A stretch of DNA of 38,996 nt from assembly GCA_015066515.1 (NCBI GenBank), contig SVOH01000019.1, forward strand, positions 1 through 38,996. Reading direction: 5' to 3'. How positions within the stretch are numbered: the first letter of the stretch is position 1; each line of letters opens with the position of its first letter. The notes beneath the pieces were generated by a model. It saw nothing but the letters and a program-made list of their open reading frames with translations, was not told the DNA's origin and searched no databases. This document shows positions 1 to 9,296 of the stretch, piece after piece. Source of the DNA: Oscillospiraceae bacterium (GTDB lineage: Bacteria > Bacillota > Clostridia > Oscillospirales > Acutalibacteraceae). The position numbers were made by a program, and so were the translations under genes.

Positions 1-2804
1 TCATCGCCTGCTGAAAGGCCTGTAATGGTATGGCCGTCACCGTCTAATGTGCCGCCAAATGGTGTATAGGTGTAGTAAATGCCACCTGTTTCTCTTGTCT
101 CTTGAGTGATCCAAGGAGCAGCCGAAAGGTCAATATCGCAACCAAGCTTATAGTAAAGCTTGTCGTAAAGGTTCATACCACCTGTTGCAATTGCGCGAGC
201 AAGCTGTATGTCGGTTTCAATAATGTATGGATCCTCTTCGGTGCCTGCACCCTTAAGTAAATAGGTGTATGGGTTAGAGCCGTAAGCATATGGGCCAACA
301 CCTGCATAGTTGTTTTGACCTTTACCTACAAGTTCAATGTAAGAAGCAATTGACTGCTCTGCTGTGTTAACTGTAGGCATTGGGAATGTACGGTCGCCTT
401 CGGTTACGATTGTCCAGTTACCCCAAGAAAGCTTAGGCATATCGAACATTTCGTAAGCGTCTTTTGCTTCAATACGTGTAATATCTTTAAGCTTGTCATA
501 TTTGTTAGGATATGTGGTAGTAATCGCGTTAAGAGGCATATCGCTATAGCTGCTATAGAAGTATACCTCAAAACCGCCGTTTTTGTCATAGCGGTTGTAG
601 AATACCTCTTTACCGCTAACGTAAACTTCGTTTACTGCGGGTGCGCCGAATGATACGCAACCCGAAAGGGTAAAGTTGTTAGCGCTGCTGGCACCGCTAT
701 AAATACCGCCCATCATATCAATGGAAGCCTCAGAGCTTGCGCCTATAGCACGCTCACAAGAAATGCCGTCATATAAACAGTTAGAAATTGTAATATTTTC
801 AGGAGTGCTATTTGTAGAAACAATACCTGCCGGACCGGGAGCGTGGTCATAACAACCTGAAGAGTCGGTTCTTGCAGTAAGTGTTATAGCACGAGTAGTG
901 CCAATGTAAGAATTTCTTACGCTGATGTTAGAAACTTTAATACGGGTTGAGTCATTATTGTACGTACCCAAGTTTGTGGTAAGCAAAGCGCTGTTACCCG
1001 TACCACTTGCATAGCAAGCATTAAAGTTAATGTTCTTAACTGTTGAAGAACCGTCAAGCTTGTAAATAAGACCCTGACCGGTTGAAGAGTACATACCGTA
1101 AATGGTAACGCCGTTACCGTCAAGATGGCCTACGAAGCTCTTGCCGGGTTTCCAGTCTTTTGCAGTGCCTGCAGCAACCATTGCCTTAGCGCCTGAAAGT
1201 GTTTCATTGCCGTAAACGTTGTTAAGGTAGAACGCATCAACTGTGTCAGCTACCTTGTAGTAATATGGTGTGTAAACAGGAGCGTAAACAGTGGTTGAGC
1301 CCTGTTTAAATATTCTATCTGTTTGTGTACCACCTGCTACGCTTTCAGCAGTTTCAACTGCCAAGTCGCCGCTTGTTGAAGTGGTATATGTTACTGTAGA
1401 AAGAGCGCGATAAAGCTGATCGGCAGTTTCGATGATGAAAGGATCATCCTTTGTACCTGTACCGCCTGCAAAGCCTGCATCGGCAGTACCGGTCCAGAAA
1501 GAAACGCCTGATTCTTCGCCTGGTTTTACAAATGTTGGGTATTCACCCTCAGCGCCCGGTTTCCAAACAGCAAACCATGCAAGGTTCATATTGCTAACAG
1601 CAGCACTACCCTGCATTTGAGCAGGTGTAAGCTGGAATACAACACTGCTAAAGTCTTGTATATAATGAGCCCAACCGGTATTATAGTTAATTTGAATCTG
1701 ACCGGTTGCCTGGTCGGTATAAACGTTTTTAAAGTGACTTGCGCCACCTGTGTGCTGAACGTCATTACCGGTATACACAGATGTTGAGTATGGTGTAACA
1801 CCTAATACAATACAGTCACTAACCATAACAGCGTTTGAACCAGCGCCACCTACTACACCACCGTGGCAGGTACGTATAGTGCTTGATGCTGTGTCGCCTT
1901 CTGCAGCTGAAATAAAGTACTGTTCATCAAGGTCTACAAAGCAGTTTTTAACGTTGTAAGCAACGTTTACGTAGATGGTATCTACCATATCGCCGTCACC
2001 GTTACCGTCAACGCCCTTGTCTGCCTCTTTCCAAGAAGGAGCACTGTTTGCCCAACCGATTATGCCACCTATAGCTGTAGCCCAGCCGGTAGTTGTAACT
2101 TCAAGGTAAGAATCGGTTACAGAACAGTTTTCAACGGTTACTGTGCACATACTGTCAGCTGCGTGGTAACCAATGATACCGCCTACCGCATTTTTACCGG
2201 TGAAGTGAGCCTTGTTAACGTGAATGTTTTTGATGGTTACTTCGCCCTTTGTGCAGGTAAAAAGACCTGCGTAGGTAGAAACTGACGTGTTGTTGGTCCA
2301 AGCGCCGTAAACTGTAGCGCCGTTACCGTCAAAATGACCCTGGAAGCCGGGTGTGCCGCCTGCGTGGTTTTTACCGGCTGCAATGATTGCATCCATGTTA
2401 TCAGCCAAAGTGCCGTCAATATCAAGGTTATTGCTTGCAAGGTTAAAGCCAGCAAGACCGTCAGCAACCTTGTAGTATTTACCCTTAGTATCGTCGCCTG
2501 ATCCTTTACAAAGGTAAACAAGCTCTTCGGCAGAGTCAATTATAATAGCGTTATCCCAAGAATCACCTGTTTCGCCGTTATCGGCAAGCTTGGTATCATA
2601 CCACTTGCTTGTGCTGCCGAGGTCGTTAATAAGATAATCACCAAATTCCAAAAGGTCAATAGTACCCTCTGCAATTGGAGCAGTTTGGGCGTTGGCAACA
2701 ATACCTGTGCCAACGTTAGCGGTAAAGAGTGTACCTATAACCATTGCAAGTGACAATGCGATACTTAATACTCTTTTAGCGCTTTTGTTTATTTCGATTT
2801 TCAT
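1..2804 (-). CDS. Giant secreted GLUG/beta-helix repeat protein, C-terminus beyond window
   Basis: This is an open frame of 934 codons from the ATG at 2804 to the left edge, so the C-terminus is missing. The start is set by an AAGAGAGG ribosome site at 2811-2818. Residues 1-40 form a Sec signal peptide: a basic start, a hydrophobic core (SIALSLAMVIGTLF) and an ANA-Q cleavage site. Residues ~45-428 are module A, present twice in the upstream gene. A second domain starts with GTGTKDDPFIIET (~residue 450) and a third with GAGTEEDPYIIET (~residue 855). The recurring 'GHFDGNGATVYG', 'GLFT', 'VTIKN' and 'VENCSV' blocks are GLUG-like and fit a right-handed beta-helix. It is probably a cell-surface or released protein that binds or acts on glycans. 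No catalytic residues could be assigned, and anchoring cannot be judged without the C-terminus. Confidence 0.85.
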   Translation of the reverse strand, partial: MKIEINKSAKRVLSIALSLAMVIGTLFTANVGTGIVANAQTAPIAEGTIDLLEFGDYLINDLGSTSKWYDTKLADNGETGDSWDNAIIIDSAEELVYLCKGSGDDTKGKYYKVADGLAGFNLASNNLDIDGTLADNMDAIIAAGKNHAGGTPGFQGHFDGNGATVYGAWTNNTSVSTYAGLFTCTKGEVTIKNIHVNKAHFTGKNAVGGIIGYHAADSMCTVTVENCSVTDSYLEVTTTGWATAIGGIIGWANSAPSWKEADKGVDGNGDGDMVDTIYVNVAYNVKNCFVDLDEQYFISAAEGDTASSTIRTCHGGVVGGAGSNAVMVSDCIVLGVTPYSTSVYTGNDVQHTGGASHFKNVYTDQATGQIQINYNTGWAHYIQDFSSVVFQLTPAQMQGSAAVSNMNLAWFAVWKPGAEGEYPTFVKPGEESGVSFWTGTADAGFAGGTGTKDDPFIIETADQLYRALSTVTYTTSTSGDLAVETAESVAGGTQTDRIFKQGSTTVYAPVYTPYYYKVADTVDAFYLNNVYGNETLSGAKAMVAAGTAKDWKPGKSFVGHLDGNGVTIYGMYSSTGQGLIYKLDGSSTVKNINFNACYASGTGNSALLTTNLGTYNNDSTRIKVSNISVRNSYIGTTRAITLTARTDSSGCYDHAPGPAGIVSTNSTPENITISNCLYDGISCERAIGASSEASIDMMGGIYSGASSANNFTLSGCVSFGAPAVNEVYVSGKEVFYNRYDKNGGFEVYFYSSYSDMPLNAITTTYPNKYDKLKDITRIEAKDAYEMFDMPKLSWGNWTIVTEGDRTFPMPTVNTAEQSIASYIELVGKGQNNYAGVGPYAYGSNPYTYLLKGAGTEEDPYIIETDIQLARAIATGGMNLYDKLYYKLGCDIDLSAAPWITQETRETGGIYYTYTPFGGTLDGDGHTITGLSAGD
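1520..2671 (-). repeat. Module A, copy 3
   Basis: This copy runs from the TIDLLEF block to a YPTF block (residues ~45-428 of the partial protein). It shares the order DNGETG, AIIIDSAEELVYLCK, KYYKVADG, GKNHAG, FQGHFDGNGATVYGAWTN, GLFTCTKG, ENCSVTDS with copies at ~4760-5921 and ~7515-8632. A 39-base stretch beginning at 2295 is identical to those at 5532 and 8256. Boundaries are approximate. Confidence 0.8.
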
Positions 2805-2869: not shown

Positions 2870-2989
2870 TTATTTAGGCCAGATTACGATATCATCGTCG
2901 TCATCGCCAAAGTTAGCGTTAGGATCGCTTGTAACGATAATATCTGTAAGGTCTAATTCATAGATTTCGATTTTTGATTTTTCAAACAT
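2870..2989 (-). CDS. 39-aa acidic peptide of unknown function
   Basis: This is a short gene between two giant secreted-protein genes and in the same direction. The ATG at 2989 has an AAAGGAG ribosome site about 8 bases upstream and the frame ends in TAA at 2870-2872. The peptide opens with MFEKSKIEIYELDLTDIIVT, continues S-D-P-N with a short polar stretch, has five consecutive Asp (residues 29-33) and ends in DIVIWPK. It has 11 acidic and 3 Lys residues, no signal peptide, no membrane segment and no Cys. I recall short Clostridia peptides of this layout (a 'K-x-x-I/V-E-I' start, then 'D-I-I-x-T-S', then an acidic tail) but no established function. A RiPP precursor, a cytoplasmic partner of the neighbouring exported proteins, or a regulatory peptide are all open. 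No RiPP-modifying enzyme is visible nearby. The gene looks real from ribosome site and context. Confidence 0.7.
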   Translation of the reverse strand: MFEKSKIEIYELDLTDIIVTSDPNANFGDDDDDIVIWPK

Positions 2990-3018
2990 AATCTAATTCT
3001 CCTTTTCTATCGGGGTCC

Positions 3019-3050
3019 TCATCTACAATGTGAAGCCACATTGTAGATGA
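3019..3050 (-). promoter_or_regulatory. Intercistronic 14-bp perfect hairpin
   Basis: Arms TCATCTACAATGTG (3019-3032) and CACATTGTAGATGA (3037-3050) pair perfectly around a 4-base loop. It lies 22 bases after the stop of the 2074-aa gene and 30 bases before the ATG of the peptide gene. No T-run follows on the minus strand (GGACCCCGATAG instead), so it does not look like a full intrinsic terminator. More likely it is an mRNA-stabilising or processing hairpin, or a partial terminator that sets different levels for the genes on either side. Confidence 0.7.
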
Positions 3051-3071
3051 AGCCGTTTATATTATCGTTTG

Positions 3072-6000
3072 TTATTTACCGTAACGCGCTTGAATCATTT
3101 GAACGTAGAACAAAAGCGCTTTTGATACTTCATAATATGATGCATACTGGCCGCAAGGCTCAATCTTGTTAGCGTTATCTGCCATAAGTGCAAAGCCCTC
3201 TACTGAGTATGAACCAAAGTCAGCCCACGCGCCACCGTTGTATGAAGCTTCTACCTTGATACCACTAGCCAAAGCTTCTACAGGGAGACCTGTTGCTCTG
3301 TAGGTGTGGAATCTACCTGCGTTTTGGCTTTCCTTATGAGTCCAGCCGCTTACGTTAACGATATCGCTACCGTCGAATGCAGGAACTGCGATTTCTTCAC
3401 TTGTTACACTTGCACCATCTTTGGTGTAGGTAAATCTAATCTTAATGTTTTCACGATTTTCTTTATATTCACCAGAAAATGCAAATGTGAATATCATATA
3501 TGGATTTGCCTTGATGTTAAGGCTGGAGCCATACATACCAAATACCATAGAACCGTTTGCATTATACTGAGTACCTGCACCTACGGTGTCAGGGGTATCA
3601 AGAATTATACCGTTGTAAAGTGTCTGAGCACTTGATGGCATACTGCCTGCTTCTTTAAAGCCTGGCATATCGCCTGCGGCACCTACGTACCAAACGGTAT
3701 CAGCAATTGGTGCAGCGTTAAGAGCGTTAACAATTGATGTAGCATTGCTGCCGATAACGTCATTGGTAGTAATTGCCTTAATCTGAGCGTCTTCGAACGT
3801 GAATTCACCGTTTGAGAATGTTATTGTACCTGACGCACCGTTGGTATAAACCCCGCTAACGCAGTTTTGAGCATTTCTTCTATAGCTTCTGCCGCCTTTA
3901 GTGTTCAAAGCGTCACAGTCAAGAATGATAGAGTTACGAACTGTGTTGCAGTAGAAGCCACTGTTTTCAACAAAGCTTGGAAGCTCGGCAGGCTTTTTAG
4001 CAGTTGTTTCAACGTCGTTATTACCTACACCAGTAAGTGCCATCTTAACACCGTCGCCGTATGTTGCGTCGTTGCCGTAAACCAAGCAGTTGTCAATCAT
4101 TATAATATCGTTCTGGAAAGAACCTGCCAATACACCGGAACGCTCCCAAGATGTGCAAGCGTTGTACATATAGTTGTTAGCAACTGTACAGCCGTTAACC
4201 CAAACTATACCTTCTTGTTTTACACCGTAGCCGCTACTATTAGCAACAGCTGCTATAGCTGCTACCTGGTAATTGGTAGCGCTGGATGTAAGGTAAGAGT
4301 TCTTAACACCGATGTTCTGAATTACAGCACCTGCATCTACCGTAGAGAACAAGCCTGCGTTATTAGTAGATGTCTGATACAAACCATAAACTGTAGCACC
4401 GTTACCGTCAAAGTGACCACAGAAGGATGAACCTTCCCAACCGTAGTTAGGCCACTTGAGCATATTAGCGGCATTCTCTTCAAAGTAAGCCTTTGTATCG
4501 GCAGCTGAGCTAAGAGCCATAATTTCTGATGCGTATTCTGGCTTTTGCATTACGAATGCGCTGATGCCGTCAGCCACCTTAAAGTACTTATCAGGTGAAA
4601 TTGTTGCGGCGCTATCTACCAATTTATCTTTTACTATGTAAGCAAATTCAGCAGCTGTGCTGATGATGTATGGATCTTCTTTTGTACCGCTACCGTTTGC
4701 AATGCTTGTTGCAACCGTACCGTCCCAAGTAGCAACAATGCCTGAAGCAGGAGCCTTGTAATCTTTGTTTATAAAGGTTGGATATGTGCTTGTTGTGGTC
4801 CAAACATTATTCCAATCAAGCGCTGTCATATTGTCTTTAGCGTTTAAGCCTGTAAGCTGTTCTTCGGTAAGTGGGAATACTTTGCCTGTGAAGTTACGGT
4901 TAGTTAATGTACCGCCAAGGTAAACACCTGTAACAGGAACATCACTTGTTGTGTAAACGTTGCTGAAGTGACTTTCAAGACCTGAGTGCTGAACAGCATT
5001 GTTGTCGGTGCTTATGCTTGTTGCATATGGCTTAATACCAATAACAATACAGTTATTTACATCAAGTGCGTTTGAACCCATGTGGCCTACTACACCACCG
5101 TGAGATACCTGCTGGCCTGCTGCACTACCACCCTCGTTTAGTGAAACAAAGTTATCTTCATCAAGATTTACATAGCAGTTTTTAATTATTACCTTGTTGT
5201 TTACGTAAAGTGTTTCGGTTGTGTTACCGTCACCGTCTTCATCGCTTGTGTCCTTATAGCTTGATGGGCAATCAACTCTACCCACTATAGCACCAAGACC
5301 ATAGCCGTAGCCTGTTTGTGTAACCTCAAGATAAGAATCGGTTACAGAACAGTTTTCGATTGTAAGGGTTGTGTTGTTAGTATTAGTACCCTCACCTTTA
5401 TAGTAACCAATAACACCGCCTGCTGCAGCTGTTGCAGTAAAGTGAGCCTTATTAACGTTAATGTTTTTAATGGTTACATCGCCCTTTGTGCAGGTGAAAA
5501 GACCTGCGTAAGCGGAAATTGATGTGTGGTTGGTCCAAGCGCCGTAAACTGTAGCGCCGTTACCGTCAAAGTGACCCTGGAAGCCCGGTGTGCCACCTGC
5601 GTGGTTTTTGCCGGAGCCCATAACAATGTCAAGGTTGGTTTTTCCGCTTGTTAATGATTTGCCGGTTAATGTACCGTTTATGTCAAGCTTATCGGTTGAA
5701 AGGTTGAAGCCTGCGATACCATCGGCTACCTTGTAATATTTGCCGTCAGTATCATCGCCTGATGCTTTACAAAGATAAACAAGCTCTTCAGCAGAGTCAA
5801 TGATGATTGCGTCATCCCAAGATGAACCTGTTTCGCCGTTGTCAGCAAGCTTGGTGTCGTACCACTGGCTTGAACTGCCTGCATCCACAAGATACTGGCC
5901 AAATTCGAGAAGGTCGATTGTGCCGGCATTATACGCCTCGTTGCTTACTGCGTCAGCCTTTTCACCGTAGTTAAGAAGTGCTGCTGCAACGTTTTTGTCA

Positions 6001-9000
6001 GCAGTATCATAGTCACCTTCAAGAATTGCCTTTGCGTTGTCGGCAATTGCAATTTGCTGTGATTTACCCCATTCAAGTATTGTTGAGCCCTCGGTTACAA
6101 GGGTTGGCAACCAAACAAGGTCAATATCACGAGCAGAAAGGTTTGGAATTGTATACATAATGGCATTTTCGCCAAGTGTATCTTTATAGCAAGATTCCGT
6201 AGCAGTATCAAGCTTTATAAACTTAGACTTATCGGTTGTACCAACGTAAAGTGTTGGAGCAAAGCCTGCTGTTTCAGGAACATAGTGCAGGTTAAAGTCA
6301 AAGCTACCATCATCGTTATAAGCTACGTTAGAGCCAATTAGTGTAAGTTCTGGGTTAGAGAACTTGCTTGTGCCAAATGTTGCAAATGGGGAGAGTACAG
6401 GGTATTTACCCATTGCACCACAGTACCAATCGGTACCCCAAGTAAGATTTGGCATAGCGTTTTTAGCTACCGAGCCTAAAGTGTCGGCCGCATTAATTTG
6501 TGTAATGTATGGTGTAGTTGTCGTTACATAGAAATACTGAAGAAGAGTTTTACCGTTTTTATCGGTATCGGTCTCTACATTAGCATCAGTATAGCAGTTT
6601 TGGTAACCCTTAAGGTCGTTAACGCGTGAACCATAGCCCTGTGGTAAGTCAAACGGGTTAAAGCCCAAGAAGATACTGTTGCGAACCATATTGTAGTAAC
6701 GTGGTGTTTCAACGCCGTCATCTACTACAACAAGACCTTCGGGAATTGCGGGAGCAGAAGAAACCAAAACATTGTTATTAGCAGAAGAGTAAAGTGGCAT
6801 TTTTACGCCGTCGCCGTATGTAGCATCATTGCCGTAAACAAGTGCATTGTCAACATACATAATATCACTTGATGCGCCAAACATTATACCGTTACGGTCA
6901 TGTGACGTAGAGTTGCCATACAAATAGTTGTTGGCAATTTCAATGTTTTTTGCCCAAATAAATCCGTTTACAGATTTACCGTAAGTACCACCGTTAGTAA
7001 CAGCAGCAAGAGCGCCGCACTGATAGTTAGCGCCACTGGACTGGCTTACCATATATGAGTTTTTAATTGCAAGGTTGTGGAACTCGGCACCTGCATCTAT
7101 AGATGAGAAAAGACCTGCGTTAGAAGACGATACCTGATAGATACCGTAAACTGTAGCGCCGTTAAAGTCGATTTTACCGCAGAAGGTTGAGCCTTCCCAA
7201 CCGTAGTAAAGCCACTGCTTCATATTTGAAGCGTTTGCTTCAAAGTAAGCCTTGGTTGCTGCGGCAGAGTCGAGCGCCTTAATATCATTACCGTAAGCAT
7301 ATGGCTGCATTACGATGCTCTTAATGCCGTCGGCAATCTTATAGTACTTGCCGTCGGTAATTGCATAGTTATCACGTGTCTGACCGCCAATGTAAGCAAG
7401 CTCGGCTACTGTGCTGATGATATAAGGATCGGCCTTAGTACCACTACCAACTGTTGGAGCAGTTTTGGTGTTTGCGCCGTCCCAGTAGATTGTGTCAGAC
7501 TTTTCGCCGGGGAGAGCTAAACGTGGGTATGTATCTGTACCGTCCATAACCCAGGTGGTGCCCCAATCAAGATTTGGCATTGCAACTACTGCTGCAGAGC
7601 CCTTAAGGCTTGATACCTGTGTTACTTTATTTGTAAAGTTACGGTTACCAAGTGAACCACCAATGTATACTGCACTGCCTGCAGGCTGATCGGTATAAAC
7701 GTTGGTAAAGTGGCTTTCAAGACCTGAGTGCTGAACGTTGTTGTTAGAAGTATTTGTTGTAGTAGCGTATGGTTTAATACCTATTACTACACAATTTTCA
7801 ACCTTCATTGCGTTGGAGTTGCAAAAACCTGCAACACCGCCGTGAAGCGCCTGATTGTCACTTGCCATACCCGATTTAAAGTATGTAGAATCAAGGTTAA
7901 CGTAGCAGTTAGTGATGTTAAGAACACCGTTTACATAGATGGTTTCGGTTGTGTTGCTGTCATTGTCGGTGTCCTCTGTATCGGTAAATGAAGAGCAGTT
8001 TTCCATAAAACCAACTATTGCGCCTGCGGCTTGACCCCAAGCGGTGCCTGTAGATACGATTTCAGAATCGGTTACAGAGCAGTTTTCGATAGTGAGGGTG
8101 TTGGTGCCGTCACCATTGTGGTAACCAACTATACCGCCTGCTACCCTTGAACCTGTAAATGAAGCAAATTTAACGTTAACGTTTTTAATTGTTACATTGC
8201 CCTTTACACAAGAGAAAAGACCAACTTGGGGAGAAACGTTACCTTCGGTATGGTTGGTCCAAGCGCCGTAAACTGTAGCGCCGTTACCGTCAAAGTGACC
8301 TTGGAAAGCGGTGGATGTGGCACCTGCATGGTTTTTACCTGAGCCTTTAACTATTGCAAGGTTATCTTCCAAAGTACCGTTAAGCTTAAGACTAGCATTA
8401 CCTGAAAGGTTAAAACCTGCGATACCGTCAGCTACCTTAAAGTATTTACCCTTTGTATAACCGGTAGAGTCACCTTTACAAATGTAAACAAGTTCTTCAG
8501 CGCTATCAATTATAATAGCGTTAGCCCAGTCGGCACCTGTTTCGCCGTTGTCGGCAACGTTGCTGTCAAAGTATTTGCTTGTACTGCCGTTGGCAAGAAG
8601 GTCATCACTAAATTCAAGAAGGTCGATTGTACCCTCTGAAACGGTTTCTTCGCTTAATTCACCGGTTGTAGGAACAAGCTGATAACCAAAGGTTTCGCCG
8701 CACTTTGAGCATACAGAATTTTCGTAAACAGCATAACGGTTTGCGTCATCTGTTGTAAGTGGAGTGCCTACTACTGTAAGAGTGTGCTGACACTCAGCAG
8801 CTATTTCGCCTGTAACAAGACCTTCAGCCTCGTAAACATACTCGCTGTCGTTGTAAGCGAGTTCTACATCGTCGAGTCTTATTTTATAAGTTCTTTCCTT
8901 GTCAGCCGAGCCGTTTGAGAACTCAAAAGTCAAGGTAAGTACAACAGTCGTATTAGCGTTTTCGCTATCAAAAAGAACATAGTCCTCTTCAACAGCTACG

Positions 9001-9296
9001 TTAACGCCTGTTGTTTTTGCTGTAACCTCTTTGAGAACCAAGTAATCAGATGCGTCCGCACCTACCTCGGTCCATACAAAGCCACCCGCAACAATACCGT
9101 TTGGCAAGTTAGCGTGTGCAAAGGTTACGTCTATGGAAGCCTCTGACAAGTCGTCTGCTGAGGGAAACGTTGCTTCGCCAAAGCTATAGCAAGAATCCGC
9201 TGCGCTTACTGTCATAAGACAACCTAAGACTGTGGTTGCGCAAATTGCTATTGTCAAAATAATTGCTAACAATTTGCTTGAAAGTCTTTTTCTCAT
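3072..9296 (-). CDS. 2074-aa secreted protein with duplicated GLUG/beta-helix halves
   Basis: The start is placed at 9296 because AAAAGGAG precedes it and the signal peptide begins there (MRKRLSSKLL, a hydrophobic core, then a VSA-AD cleavage site). The frame is open 45 codons further, but that part has no ribosome site and lies inside the leader. Layout: residues ~35-220 are an N-terminal region ending in a C-x-H ... C-x-x-C-G element (AECQHT and CSKCGETFGY). Then come module A1 (~222-595), B1 (~601-970), E1 (~971-1125), A2 (~1126-1515), B2 (~1518-1880) and E2 (~1881-2074). B modules open with GSGTK-x-DPYIIST. E1 and E2 each end in an 'I-x-x-G-x-Y ... V-x-x-ALL-x-Y' helical motif that I recall from gut Bacillota surface proteins. 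No LPXTG, dockerin or S-layer domain is seen. It is likely surface-associated or released, with a beta-helix fold. Catalysis is not shown. Confidence 0.85.
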   Translation of the reverse strand: MRKRLSSKLLAIILTIAICATTVLGCLMTVSAADSCYSFGEATFPSADDLSEASIDVTFAHANLPNGIVAGGFVWTEVGADASDYLVLKEVTAKTTGVNVAVEEDYVLFDSENANTTVVLTLTFEFSNGSADKERTYKIRLDDVELAYNDSEYVYEAEGLVTGEIAAECQHTLTVVGTPLTTDDANRYAVYENSVCSKCGETFGYQLVPTTGELSEETVSEGTIDLLEFSDDLLANGSTSKYFDSNVADNGETGADWANAIIIDSAEELVYICKGDSTGYTKGKYFKVADGIAGFNLSGNASLKLNGTLEDNLAIVKGSGKNHAGATSTAFQGHFDGNGATVYGAWTNHTEGNVSPQVGLFSCVKGNVTIKNVNVKFASFTGSRVAGGIVGYHNGDGTNTLTIENCSVTDSEIVSTGTAWGQAAGAIVGFMENCSSFTDTEDTDNDSNTTETIYVNGVLNITNCYVNLDSTYFKSGMASDNQALHGGVAGFCNSNAMKVENCVVIGIKPYATTTNTSNNNVQHSGLESHFTNVYTDQPAGSAVYIGGSLGNRNFTNKVTQVSSLKGSAAVVAMPNLDWGTTWVMDGTDTYPRLALPGEKSDTIYWDGANTKTAPTVGSGTKADPYIISTVAELAYIGGQTRDNYAITDGKYYKIADGIKSIVMQPYAYGNDIKALDSAAATKAYFEANASNMKQWLYYGWEGSTFCGKIDFNGATVYGIYQVSSSNAGLFSSIDAGAEFHNLAIKNSYMVSQSSGANYQCGALAAVTNGGTYGKSVNGFIWAKNIEIANNYLYGNSTSHDRNGIMFGASSDIMYVDNALVYGNDATYGDGVKMPLYSSANNNVLVSSAPAIPEGLVVVDDGVETPRYYNMVRNSIFLGFNPFDLPQGYGSRVNDLKGYQNCYTDANVETDTDKNGKTLLQYFYVTTTTPYITQINAADTLGSVAKNAMPNLTWGTDWYCGAMGKYPVLSPFATFGTSKFSNPELTLIGSNVAYNDDGSFDFNLHYVPETAGFAPTLYVGTTDKSKFIKLDTATESCYKDTLGENAIMYTIPNLSARDIDLVWLPTLVTEGSTILEWGKSQQIAIADNAKAILEGDYDTADKNVAAALLNYGEKADAVSNEAYNAGTIDLLEFGQYLVDAGSSSQWYDTKLADNGETGSSWDDAIIIDSAEELVYLCKASGDDTDGKYYKVADGIAGFNLSTDKLDINGTLTGKSLTSGKTNLDIVMGSGKNHAGGTPGFQGHFDGNGATVYGAWTNHTSISAYAGLFTCTKGDVTIKNINVNKAHFTATAAAGGVIGYYKGEGTNTNNTTLTIENCSVTDSYLEVTQTGYGYGLGAIVGRVDCPSSYKDTSDEDGDGNTTETLYVNNKVIIKNCYVNLDEDNFVSLNEGGSAAGQQVSHGGVVGHMGSNALDVNNCIVIGIKPYATSISTDNNAVQHSGLESHFSNVYTTSDVPVTGVYLGGTLTNRNFTGKVFPLTEEQLTGLNAKDNMTALDWNNVWTTTSTYPTFINKDYKAPASGIVATWDGTVATSIANGSGTKEDPYIISTAAEFAYIVKDKLVDSAATISPDKYFKVADGISAFVMQKPEYASEIMALSSAADTKAYFEENAANMLKWPNYGWEGSSFCGHFDGNGATVYGLYQTSTNNAGLFSTVDAGAVIQNIGVKNSYLTSSATNYQVAAIAAVANSSGYGVKQEGIVWVNGCTVANNYMYNACTSWERSGVLAGSFQNDIIMIDNCLVYGNDATYGDGVKMALTGVGNNDVETTAKKPAELPSFVENSGFYCNTVRNSIILDCDALNTKGGRSYRRNAQNCVSGVYTNGASGTITFSNGEFTFEDAQIKAITTNDVIGSNATSIVNALNAAPIADTVWYVGAAGDMPGFKEAGSMPSSAQTLYNGIILDTPDTVGAGTQYNANGSMVFGMYGSSLNIKANPYMIFTFAFSGEYKENRENIKIRFTYTKDGASVTSEEIAVPAFDGSDIVNVSGWTHKESQNAGRFHTYRATGLPVEALASGIKVEASYNGGAWADFGSYSVEGFALMADNANKIEPCGQYASYYEVSKALLFYVQMIQARYGK
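3655..4743 (-). repeat. Module B, copy 2
   Basis: Residues ~1518-1880 of the 2074-aa protein. Shared landmarks with copy 1 are GSGTK-x-DPYIIST, TKAYFE, YGWEGS-x-FCG, FNGATVYG or DGNGATVYG, NAGLFS, and LVYGNDATYGDGVKM. Copy 1 lies at ~6385-7497. Boundaries are approximate. Confidence 0.75.
4760..5921 (-). repeat. Module A, copy 2
   Basis: Residues ~1126-1515 of the 2074-aa protein, from TIDLLEF to YPTF. It is closest in appearance to copy 3 in the next gene: both have TPGFQGHFDGNGATVYGAWT, GLFTCTKG and IKNI-x-VNKAHFT, whereas copy 1 differs at several of these points. Confidence 0.8.
6385..7497 (-). repeat. Module B, copy 1
   Basis: Residues ~601-970 of the 2074-aa protein. It begins at the 'YWDG' and GSGTKADPYIIST block and ends near KYPVLSPF. 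The same block order recurs at ~3655-4743. Confidence 0.75.
7515..8632 (-). repeat. Module A, copy 1
   Basis: Residues ~222-595 of the 2074-aa protein, from TIDLLEF to YPRLALPG. It contains the 39-base stretch starting at 8256 that is identical in all three A copies. Confidence 0.8.

Follow-up and report, generated by a model that had tools for sequence, protein, structure and literature searches.

A short gene maintained behind a gene for a secreted giant

What does a peptide of 39 residues do between two genes for giant secreted proteins? The question is raised by the minus strand of the window, as we call the whole 38,996-nt stretch of DNA analysed here, which is one contig of a 2.02 Mb Oscillospiraceae genome in 41 contigs. 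The 39-codon peptide gene lies at 2870..2989 (minus strand), including the stop. Read from 2989 to 2870 it translates as MFEKSKIEIYELDLTDIIVTSDPNANFGDDDDDIVIWPK, followed by a stop codon, and a ribosome-binding site AGGAG (2999..3003, minus strand) is placed 10-14 nt 5' of its ATG. On the same strand and 82 nt upstream ends the gene of a secreted giant repeat protein (3072..9296, minus strand, read from 9296 to 3072), which has 2074 aa from its likely ATG, starts with a signal peptide and is the proposed partner of the peptide. The gene downstream (3..2804, minus strand) encodes another secreted giant and runs off the window end. A previous sequence-only reading had set the peptide between two giants that share repeats; the position is correct, the sharing of modules is judged by eye only, and the GLUG assignment is weak, since Pfam Glug matches the downstream giant with 13.7 bits against a cut-off of 20.5. 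Elsewhere in the genome, contig C22 stops inside a giant (locus L136, 7832-10225) whose C-terminus, FNNNNHFGYN, resembles that of downstream giants; it is a candidate for the missing part of the gene cut off by the window end (1-2804).

The gap between the upstream giant and the peptide gene contains a strong hairpin (3014..3054, minus strand; z -6.6), behind which no terminator-like T-run was seen. Strong hairpins or palindromic elements, not all alike, are present in the gap of seven window-type loci of the same genus with 56-299 nt between the two genes (the window, L008, L030, L031, L033, L040 and L042), with z scores of -4.4 to -6.2 relative to mononucleotide shuffles. The hairpin of the window is perhaps an mRNA stability or processing element.

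Four near-identical copies of the peptide, with 92-100% protein identity, are encoded in the genome, on the window contig (C32) and on contigs C7, C14 and C24. Two distant copies are found on C8 and C1, the latter added by profile search. Three of the copies are the same at the protein level, whereas their genes diverge at 6-11 of about 22 synonymous sites (dS 0.34-0.84; path averaging accounts for the dN of 0-0.011 computed for them), indicating that their likeness is maintained by selection on the protein and is not due to recent copying. Pairwise omega was 0-0.17 over paralogues and relatives (eight genes, three genomes), and ribosome sites are present at the paralogous copies. The existence of a genuine short gene with a good ribosome site, as proposed from the letters alone, is thus borne out by the AGGAG motif, the four genomic copies and a profile-defined family with a null control. 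The copies in the window, C7 and C14 each directly follow a frame of 1,600-2,100 aa with a signal-peptide-like start. For the C24 copy the nearest frame has 495 aa and starts after an N stretch; this gene was scored as having no signal peptide in the counts below, and the frame preceding it has a signal-peptide-like start. At C7 the gene after the peptide is convergent, which places the peptide with its upstream gene.

The peptide family combines a conserved N-terminal block with a variable tail

Searches with a 20-row profile (E 0.05) found the peptide in 31 of 70 genomes of the same genus, and a 38-row profile (E 1e-3) found it in 69 of 394 genomes of the same order, representing 43 of 168 genera. 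We analysed 120 loci, 58 from the genus and 62 from elsewhere in the order, which encode 114 distinct peptides. The matches outside the genus were sampled at 63 places, mainly from the strong end and in places several per genome, and three loci were dropped before counting: L125 (a long ORF), L105 (peptide cut by a contig end) and L217 (a 12-aa frame). On the family loci, 124 short ORFs matched the profile, compared with none of 39,937 reversed ORFs. The check proposed earlier, for conserved homologues beside other genes of this kind, was run and gave a positive answer. In a phylum-wide search at E 1e-4 only 1 of 398 genomes matched, the window's own; the same-order genomes listed there were also empty, so that the result mainly means that the profile is unseen in other orders. 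A scan of genome contigs returned 18 loci, all in Clostridia MAGs, with the gut of a goat, roe deer, sheep or buffalo as the source of 16 of them.

An N-terminal block, [YF]xx[PA]x[IL]EI...D[IV][IV]xTS, is common to the 114 distinct peptides; after it comes a variable and mostly acidic tail. Every row of the 38-row alignment has the Ser (38/38), and Glu8 and Asp16 are nearly invariant; the register pattern itself requires the Ser, and its invariance is taken from the alignment and not from the pattern count. When 112 peptides were anchored on the Asp, Tyr at -14 (47/60) and Pro at -11 (44/60) prevailed among order members, and Phe at -14 (43/52) and Ala at -11 (31/52) in the window's genus. 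The block of the window peptide, residues 1-21 (MFEKSKIEIYELDLTDIIVTS; 2927..2989, minus strand), is leader-like according to the alignments and register counts, ends in the conserved Ser21 and is predicted to include an RRE-binding strand. Residues 22-39 (DPNANFGDDDDDIVIWPK; 2873..2926, minus strand) form the variable acidic, core-like tail, which has no Cys, Ser or Thr; the run of five Asp and the Trp near the C-terminus that had been singled out earlier are residues 29-33 and 37. The window peptide had no match in Pfam and NCBIfam, and the peptide profile gave a chance-level match only against the PDB. An open-access literature search, with subscription papers mostly outside it, listed no paper on such peptides beside Clostridia secreted proteins.

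Several loci deviate from the single-peptide layout. At L114 the 163-nt gap before the main peptide encodes another family member, arranged in tandem (MIKFETPIIEIIAFESRDVIATSNEPDLDDDGFDNEVVKP, identified by eye). Three peptides at L110 and L122 have almost the same glycine-rich tail (GGGLGGLINGGDNNESGWNTGIGGLSDVFGNG) and follow secreted proteins of 756-916 aa with similar C-termini. In a second branch, a small lipoprotein-like gene (about 85-177 aa) comes after the peptide, often overlapping or nearly so (L009, L049, L101, L103, L104, L112, L113, L115, L119 and L190). In four genomes (L006, L032, L038 and L045) one common convergent gene (MKKVLAFDFGASSGRAML...) stands behind the peptide, with what we take to be a sugar-kinase-like start.

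The peptide gene is coupled to the secreted-protein gene upstream

A co-directional upstream gene within 300 nt was found at 108 of 120 loci, with a median gap of 26 nt. According to a home-made rule, 78 of the 90 such genes with a visible N-terminus (87%) have a signal-peptide-like start, in contrast to 55 of 225 control ORFs (24%) of the window's genome and, in the order loci, 51 of 218 genes that lie further away. The suggestion that the peptide is tied to this class of secreted proteins is therefore supported for the gene upstream and not for both giants. The last 60 or so residues of the window's upstream giant (3072..3254, minus strand; end ...KALLFYVQMIQARYGK) form a C-terminal module common to many upstream partners of the family. 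All 53 assessable proteins that match the profile of this module have a peptide behind them, none is without, and one lies at an edge, a count that is biased because the loci were picked for holding peptides. Six downstream giants of the same arrays, picked by N-terminal pattern and like the one at 3..2804, have neither the C-terminal module nor a peptide behind, and five of them finish in a FNN(N/G)NHFGY-like sequence.

Between genomes, similarity of the tails tracks similarity of the upstream C-termini (36 loci, rho 0.44, 0/500 permutations as high). Similarity of the leaders does so to nearly the same degree (rho 0.42), so that co-inheritance alone could explain the correlation. In the window's genome, three copies with identical tails follow upstream proteins with differing C-termini.

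Cysteine in the tail coincides with a radical-SAM enzyme

At L107, L111, L116, L120 and L123 a gene for a radical-SAM/SPASM enzyme stands next to the peptide gene and is followed by one for a remotely HprK-like protein, in L117 the order is reversed, and in four of these six loci (L116, L117, L120 and L123) PqqD and protease genes then follow. Cys is present in the tail of 13 of 13 peptides with a radical-SAM/SPASM gene in the locus and in none of the 101 others (Fisher 2e-17, a test that ignores phylogeny). The 13 peptides come from twelve loci, of which seven belong to the window's genus and five to other genera. Enzymes of 400-520 aa were considered, all within 1.2 kb of the peptide, a filter that left out the radical-SAM matches of L242 (281 aa) and L220 (274 aa), and in 3 of the 114 peptides position instead of pattern defined where the tail starts. 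This rule indicates that the tail is the substrate, i.e. the core, and that the N-terminal block behaves as a leader. The window peptide itself has no Cys and no radical-SAM/SPASM neighbour.

RiPP-type genes adjoin relatives of the peptide and are scattered in the window's genome

Beside some other family members are genes for a PqqD-type leader-binding protein, an HprK-like protein, a signal-peptidase-like protease, an ABC exporter and a nucleotidyltransferase. Past one intervening gene, L243 has HprK-like, PqqD, protease, ABC and NTP_transf_5 genes in this order and no radical SAM; L241 has the same set, the protease not found and again no radical SAM, and partial kits were seen at L231, L202, L210, L185 and L205. 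PqqD and NTP_transf_5 exceed the Pfam cut-off in L243 and L241. The NTP transferase (PF14907) is in the cluster at L241, L243, L185 and L210, and Pfam ABC transporter domains are found at L243, L241, L214, L205 and L195. In the Cys-free group with the start MFKKA[DN]L[ED]IY, which is closest to the window type, PqqD and protease genes lie divergently beside the secreted-protein gene and the peptide gene at all six loci (L043, L044, L046, L047, L048 and L099). Over the whole set, only 22 of the 120 loci have RiPP-type genes within 4 kb downstream, and 8 have them upstream.

The window copy has no kit gene next to it, and relatives of the kit genes are found on other contigs of the genome. C1 carries a pair of PqqD and protease genes, and its PqqD is 53-55% identical to those of L043, L044 and L047 and 46% identical to that of L099. 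C30 carries a second PqqD gene beside an ABC exporter whose best model is MsbA, under its cut-off. The PqqD proteins on C1, C30 and C22 all exceed the Pfam cut-off. A gene for an HprK-like protein at C26:105031-105726 matches the profile of peptide-adjacent HprK-like proteins with E 2.3e-77. PF14907 is found in this genome only at C30:41663, within a 573-aa protein that is not near any peptide. Two SPASM proteins were detected, one weak and one above the cut-off, which we take to resemble a SCIFF maturase; a single-sequence search found no relative of the L111 radical-SAM maturase. PqqD-domain genes also lie near giant arrays at L030 (C12:8412 of another genome, G018, about 8 kb from the peptide) and at L136 in the window's genome (C22:5599), where the gene adjoins peptidase- and transporter-like genes. 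Across the genus, PqqD is present in 67 of 70 genomes (31/31 with the peptide versus 36/39 others, p = 0.25), so its co-occurrence with the peptide is uninformative. HprK-like proteins are found in 30 of 31 peptide-bearing genomes versus 29 of 39 others (p = 0.018, a figure that ignores kinship and genome completeness).

How far the kit proteins resemble their models was examined with profiles and structures. The PqqD profile matches the structures TbiB1, TfuB1 and PqqD; with the window genome's own PqqD as single query, TfuB1 was reached at no better than E 0.19. In the kit proteases Ser27, His67 and Asp83 are invariant (18/18, own included); compared by residue type only, these are what LppS uses. 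Peptidase_S24 matches lie just below its cut-off of 23.3 bits, at 23.2 for the own protease and 22 for that of L243, and the signal-peptidase-like protease reached 44.3 bits against TIGR02228 (cut-off 51.85). The HprK-like proteins contain a P-loop, and 19 columns of their alignment are invariant. Pfam Hpr_kinase_C touches 3 of 17 of them (best E 0.041; the own protein without match), the NCBIfam models of HprK-related kinases A and B touch 12 and 11 of 17 (best E 1e-4, below cut-off), and NCBIfam ScmC touches 14 of 17 with a best value of 2.3e-11, all below cut-off (own 2.7e-5, far below it). HprK structures gave no match to the HprK-like proteins by sequence. Together with the shared kit, these remote model matches suggest that the proteins may be active kinases.

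The system resembles LPP clusters and differs from them in leader and partner

According to Popov et al. 2026 (PMC13381572), the lpp clusters of Bacilli consist of a precursor gene with genes for LppK, LppB, LppS, LppD and LppN. HprK-like LppK phosphorylates core Ser3, LppB is an RRE, LppS is signal-peptidase-like with Ser, His and Asp, LppD is MsbA-like, LppN is an NTP transferase, and the authors give the LPP products no known role. The LPP leader needs its Tyr and Pro (YxxP), Ala at either position weakens binding, and the motif occurs in both LPP and lasso leaders (PMC13381572).

The family described here also has a short precursor with a conserved N-terminus and a variable C-terminus, and beside some relatives an RRE, an HprK-like protein, a Ser/His/Asp signal-peptidase-like protease, an MsbA-like ABC pump and an NTP transferase. 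Most order members have YxxP, no lasso B2 match was obtained in 70 genomes of the window's genus, and the conserved Ser lies 16 residues past the Pro, compared with 15 in LPP. In contrast, the leader reads EIEI..F/L...D(I/V)(I/V)TTS here and VLxHQxIxFETxxS in LPP. The full LPP leader YxxPxVLxHQxIxFETxxS occurs in 0 of 114 distinct peptides and the looser [YW]xxPx[LVIAFY] in 35 of 114; the latter is absent from the window peptide, and its genus has FxxA/S in place of YxxP. The peptides are moreover coupled to a secreted-protein gene, include a Cys/radical-SAM branch and, in the window's genome, come as several scattered precursors with machinery in trans. The best reading is that the window peptide works like an LPP without being classed as one, since its leader departs from the consensus, the window copy is unclustered and the window's genus mostly lacks the Pro.

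Other systems share parts of this organization. The PqqD-type B1 protein, HPr kinase homologue, nucleotidyltransferase and [Y/W]xxP leader recall paeninodin-type lasso peptides (PMC8498205 and PMC13381572), and HPr kinase, PqqD and nucleotidyltransferase genes are described as common in lasso clusters of rumen bacteria (PMC7533575). Identity with lasso peptides is rejected, as a search at E 1e-3 found the B2 peptidase (PF13471) in none of the 70 genus genomes. TIGR04463 was the best model for the four distinct Cys-branch radical-SAM/SPASM enzymes scanned; they score 132-159 bits against a cut-off of 525, the window branch has neither Cys nor such an enzyme nearby, and a literature search on this model found no paper. 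The SynChlorMet cassette, by its NCBIfam names, comprises ScmC, PqqD-like ScmD and the radical-SAM proteins ScmE and ScmF. The PqqD proteins match ScmD weakly, as 14 of 17 HprK-like proteins match ScmC, all under the curated cut-offs, the comparison being one of enzyme models. In the Qhp system, as described in PMC7876137, QhpC is the radical-SAM-crosslinked gamma subunit of quinohemoprotein amine dehydrogenase, and one operon holds the leader peptide, radical SAM, protease, ABC exporter and periplasmic partner together. That peptide is modified in the cytosol, cut, exported by the ABC protein and joined to its same-operon periplasmic partner, which is the likeness; the proposed partner here is a repeat protein, and the Qhp protease is subtilisin-like (PMC7876137).

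Proposed role of the peptide

With a probability of about 0.65, the window gene encodes a RiPP-type precursor of the LPP kind that is phosphorylated at Ser21 and from which the acidic core is set free to act with the upstream secreted protein. Within the leader (residues 1-21), the IEI stretch would bind to a PqqD-type RRE protein by forming a beta strand, and this protein would present the leader to the HprK-like kinase and the signal-peptidase-I-like protease. The conserved Ser21 is the putative phosphate acceptor and counterpart of LPP core Ser3; neither Ser nor Thr occurs in the window tail. The protease would remove the leader just before or at Ser21. The real cut may lie a few residues N-terminal of it; by comparison with LPP we prefer a cut just before Ser21, with this Ser as the probable phospho-acceptor, to one after Ser21 that follows the -1/-3 rule. 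The short acidic, aromatic tail would then leave through the ABC pump and act with the secreted product of the gene immediately upstream, and the four copies would share the machinery scattered over C1, C30 and C26 in trans. The RiPP-type kit, the split into leader and core and the Cys/radical-SAM rule are additions to the sequence-only reading.

A special case of this precursor model, which we consider possible but hold tentatively, makes the matured peptide a small subunit or cofactor peptide dedicated to the upstream protein, like QhpC. Secretion of the upstream gene product in 78 of 90 cases, the sequence of C-terminal module and peptide (with the selection bias given above), the correlation of tail with upstream C-terminus and the Qhp precedent (PMC7876137) count in its favour. 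The leader correlation, for which plain co-inheritance is enough, and the identical tails behind differing C-termini in the window's own genome speak against it. Rather unlikely, in our view, is an unmodified acidic protein of the cytosol that acts on the upstream protein as regulator or escort, controlling its translation, stability or secretion, the RiPP genes being a matter of other branches only. Such a role would suit the operon position, the acidic tail free of Cys, Ser and Thr and the lack of an adjoining enzyme at the window copy. It does not account for the fact that several genera have the same block next to RRE and further kit genes, for the Ser that is retained while the tail varies, or for the PqqD and protease pair that the genome keeps.

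The scattered kit and the failure to find the L111 maturase relative in the genome could also be understood if an ancestral precursor had lost its enzymes and were now drifting as an orphan relic. The substitution pattern (omega 0-0.17 across paralogues and relatives) disfavours this, ribosome sites persist at the copies, and we regard it as very improbable. That the frame is a chance ORF or the decayed C-terminus of a giant, for which its short length might be cited, is refuted by the paralogues, the 31 of 70 genus genomes and the 0 of 39,937 reversed ORFs. The precursor model with Ser21 as acceptor is the reading that we retain.

Genes as short as 39 codons may be missed by annotation. The peptide family forms a large branch that extends over an order of Clostridia, with most precursors tied to a secreted protein, and its Cys/radical-SAM split suggests one leader type feeding two chemistries. 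The role of LPP-type peptides thereby becomes testable through the adjoining secreted protein. More speculatively, and with the odds against it in our own estimate, a RiPP factory of gut Clostridia (RRE, HprK-like protein, protease and exporter, with a radical SAM in one branch) would make custom modified peptides that partner giant secreted repeat proteins and are not antibiotics, one factory serving several scattered pairs and each core being matched to the C-terminal module of the protein encoded upstream.
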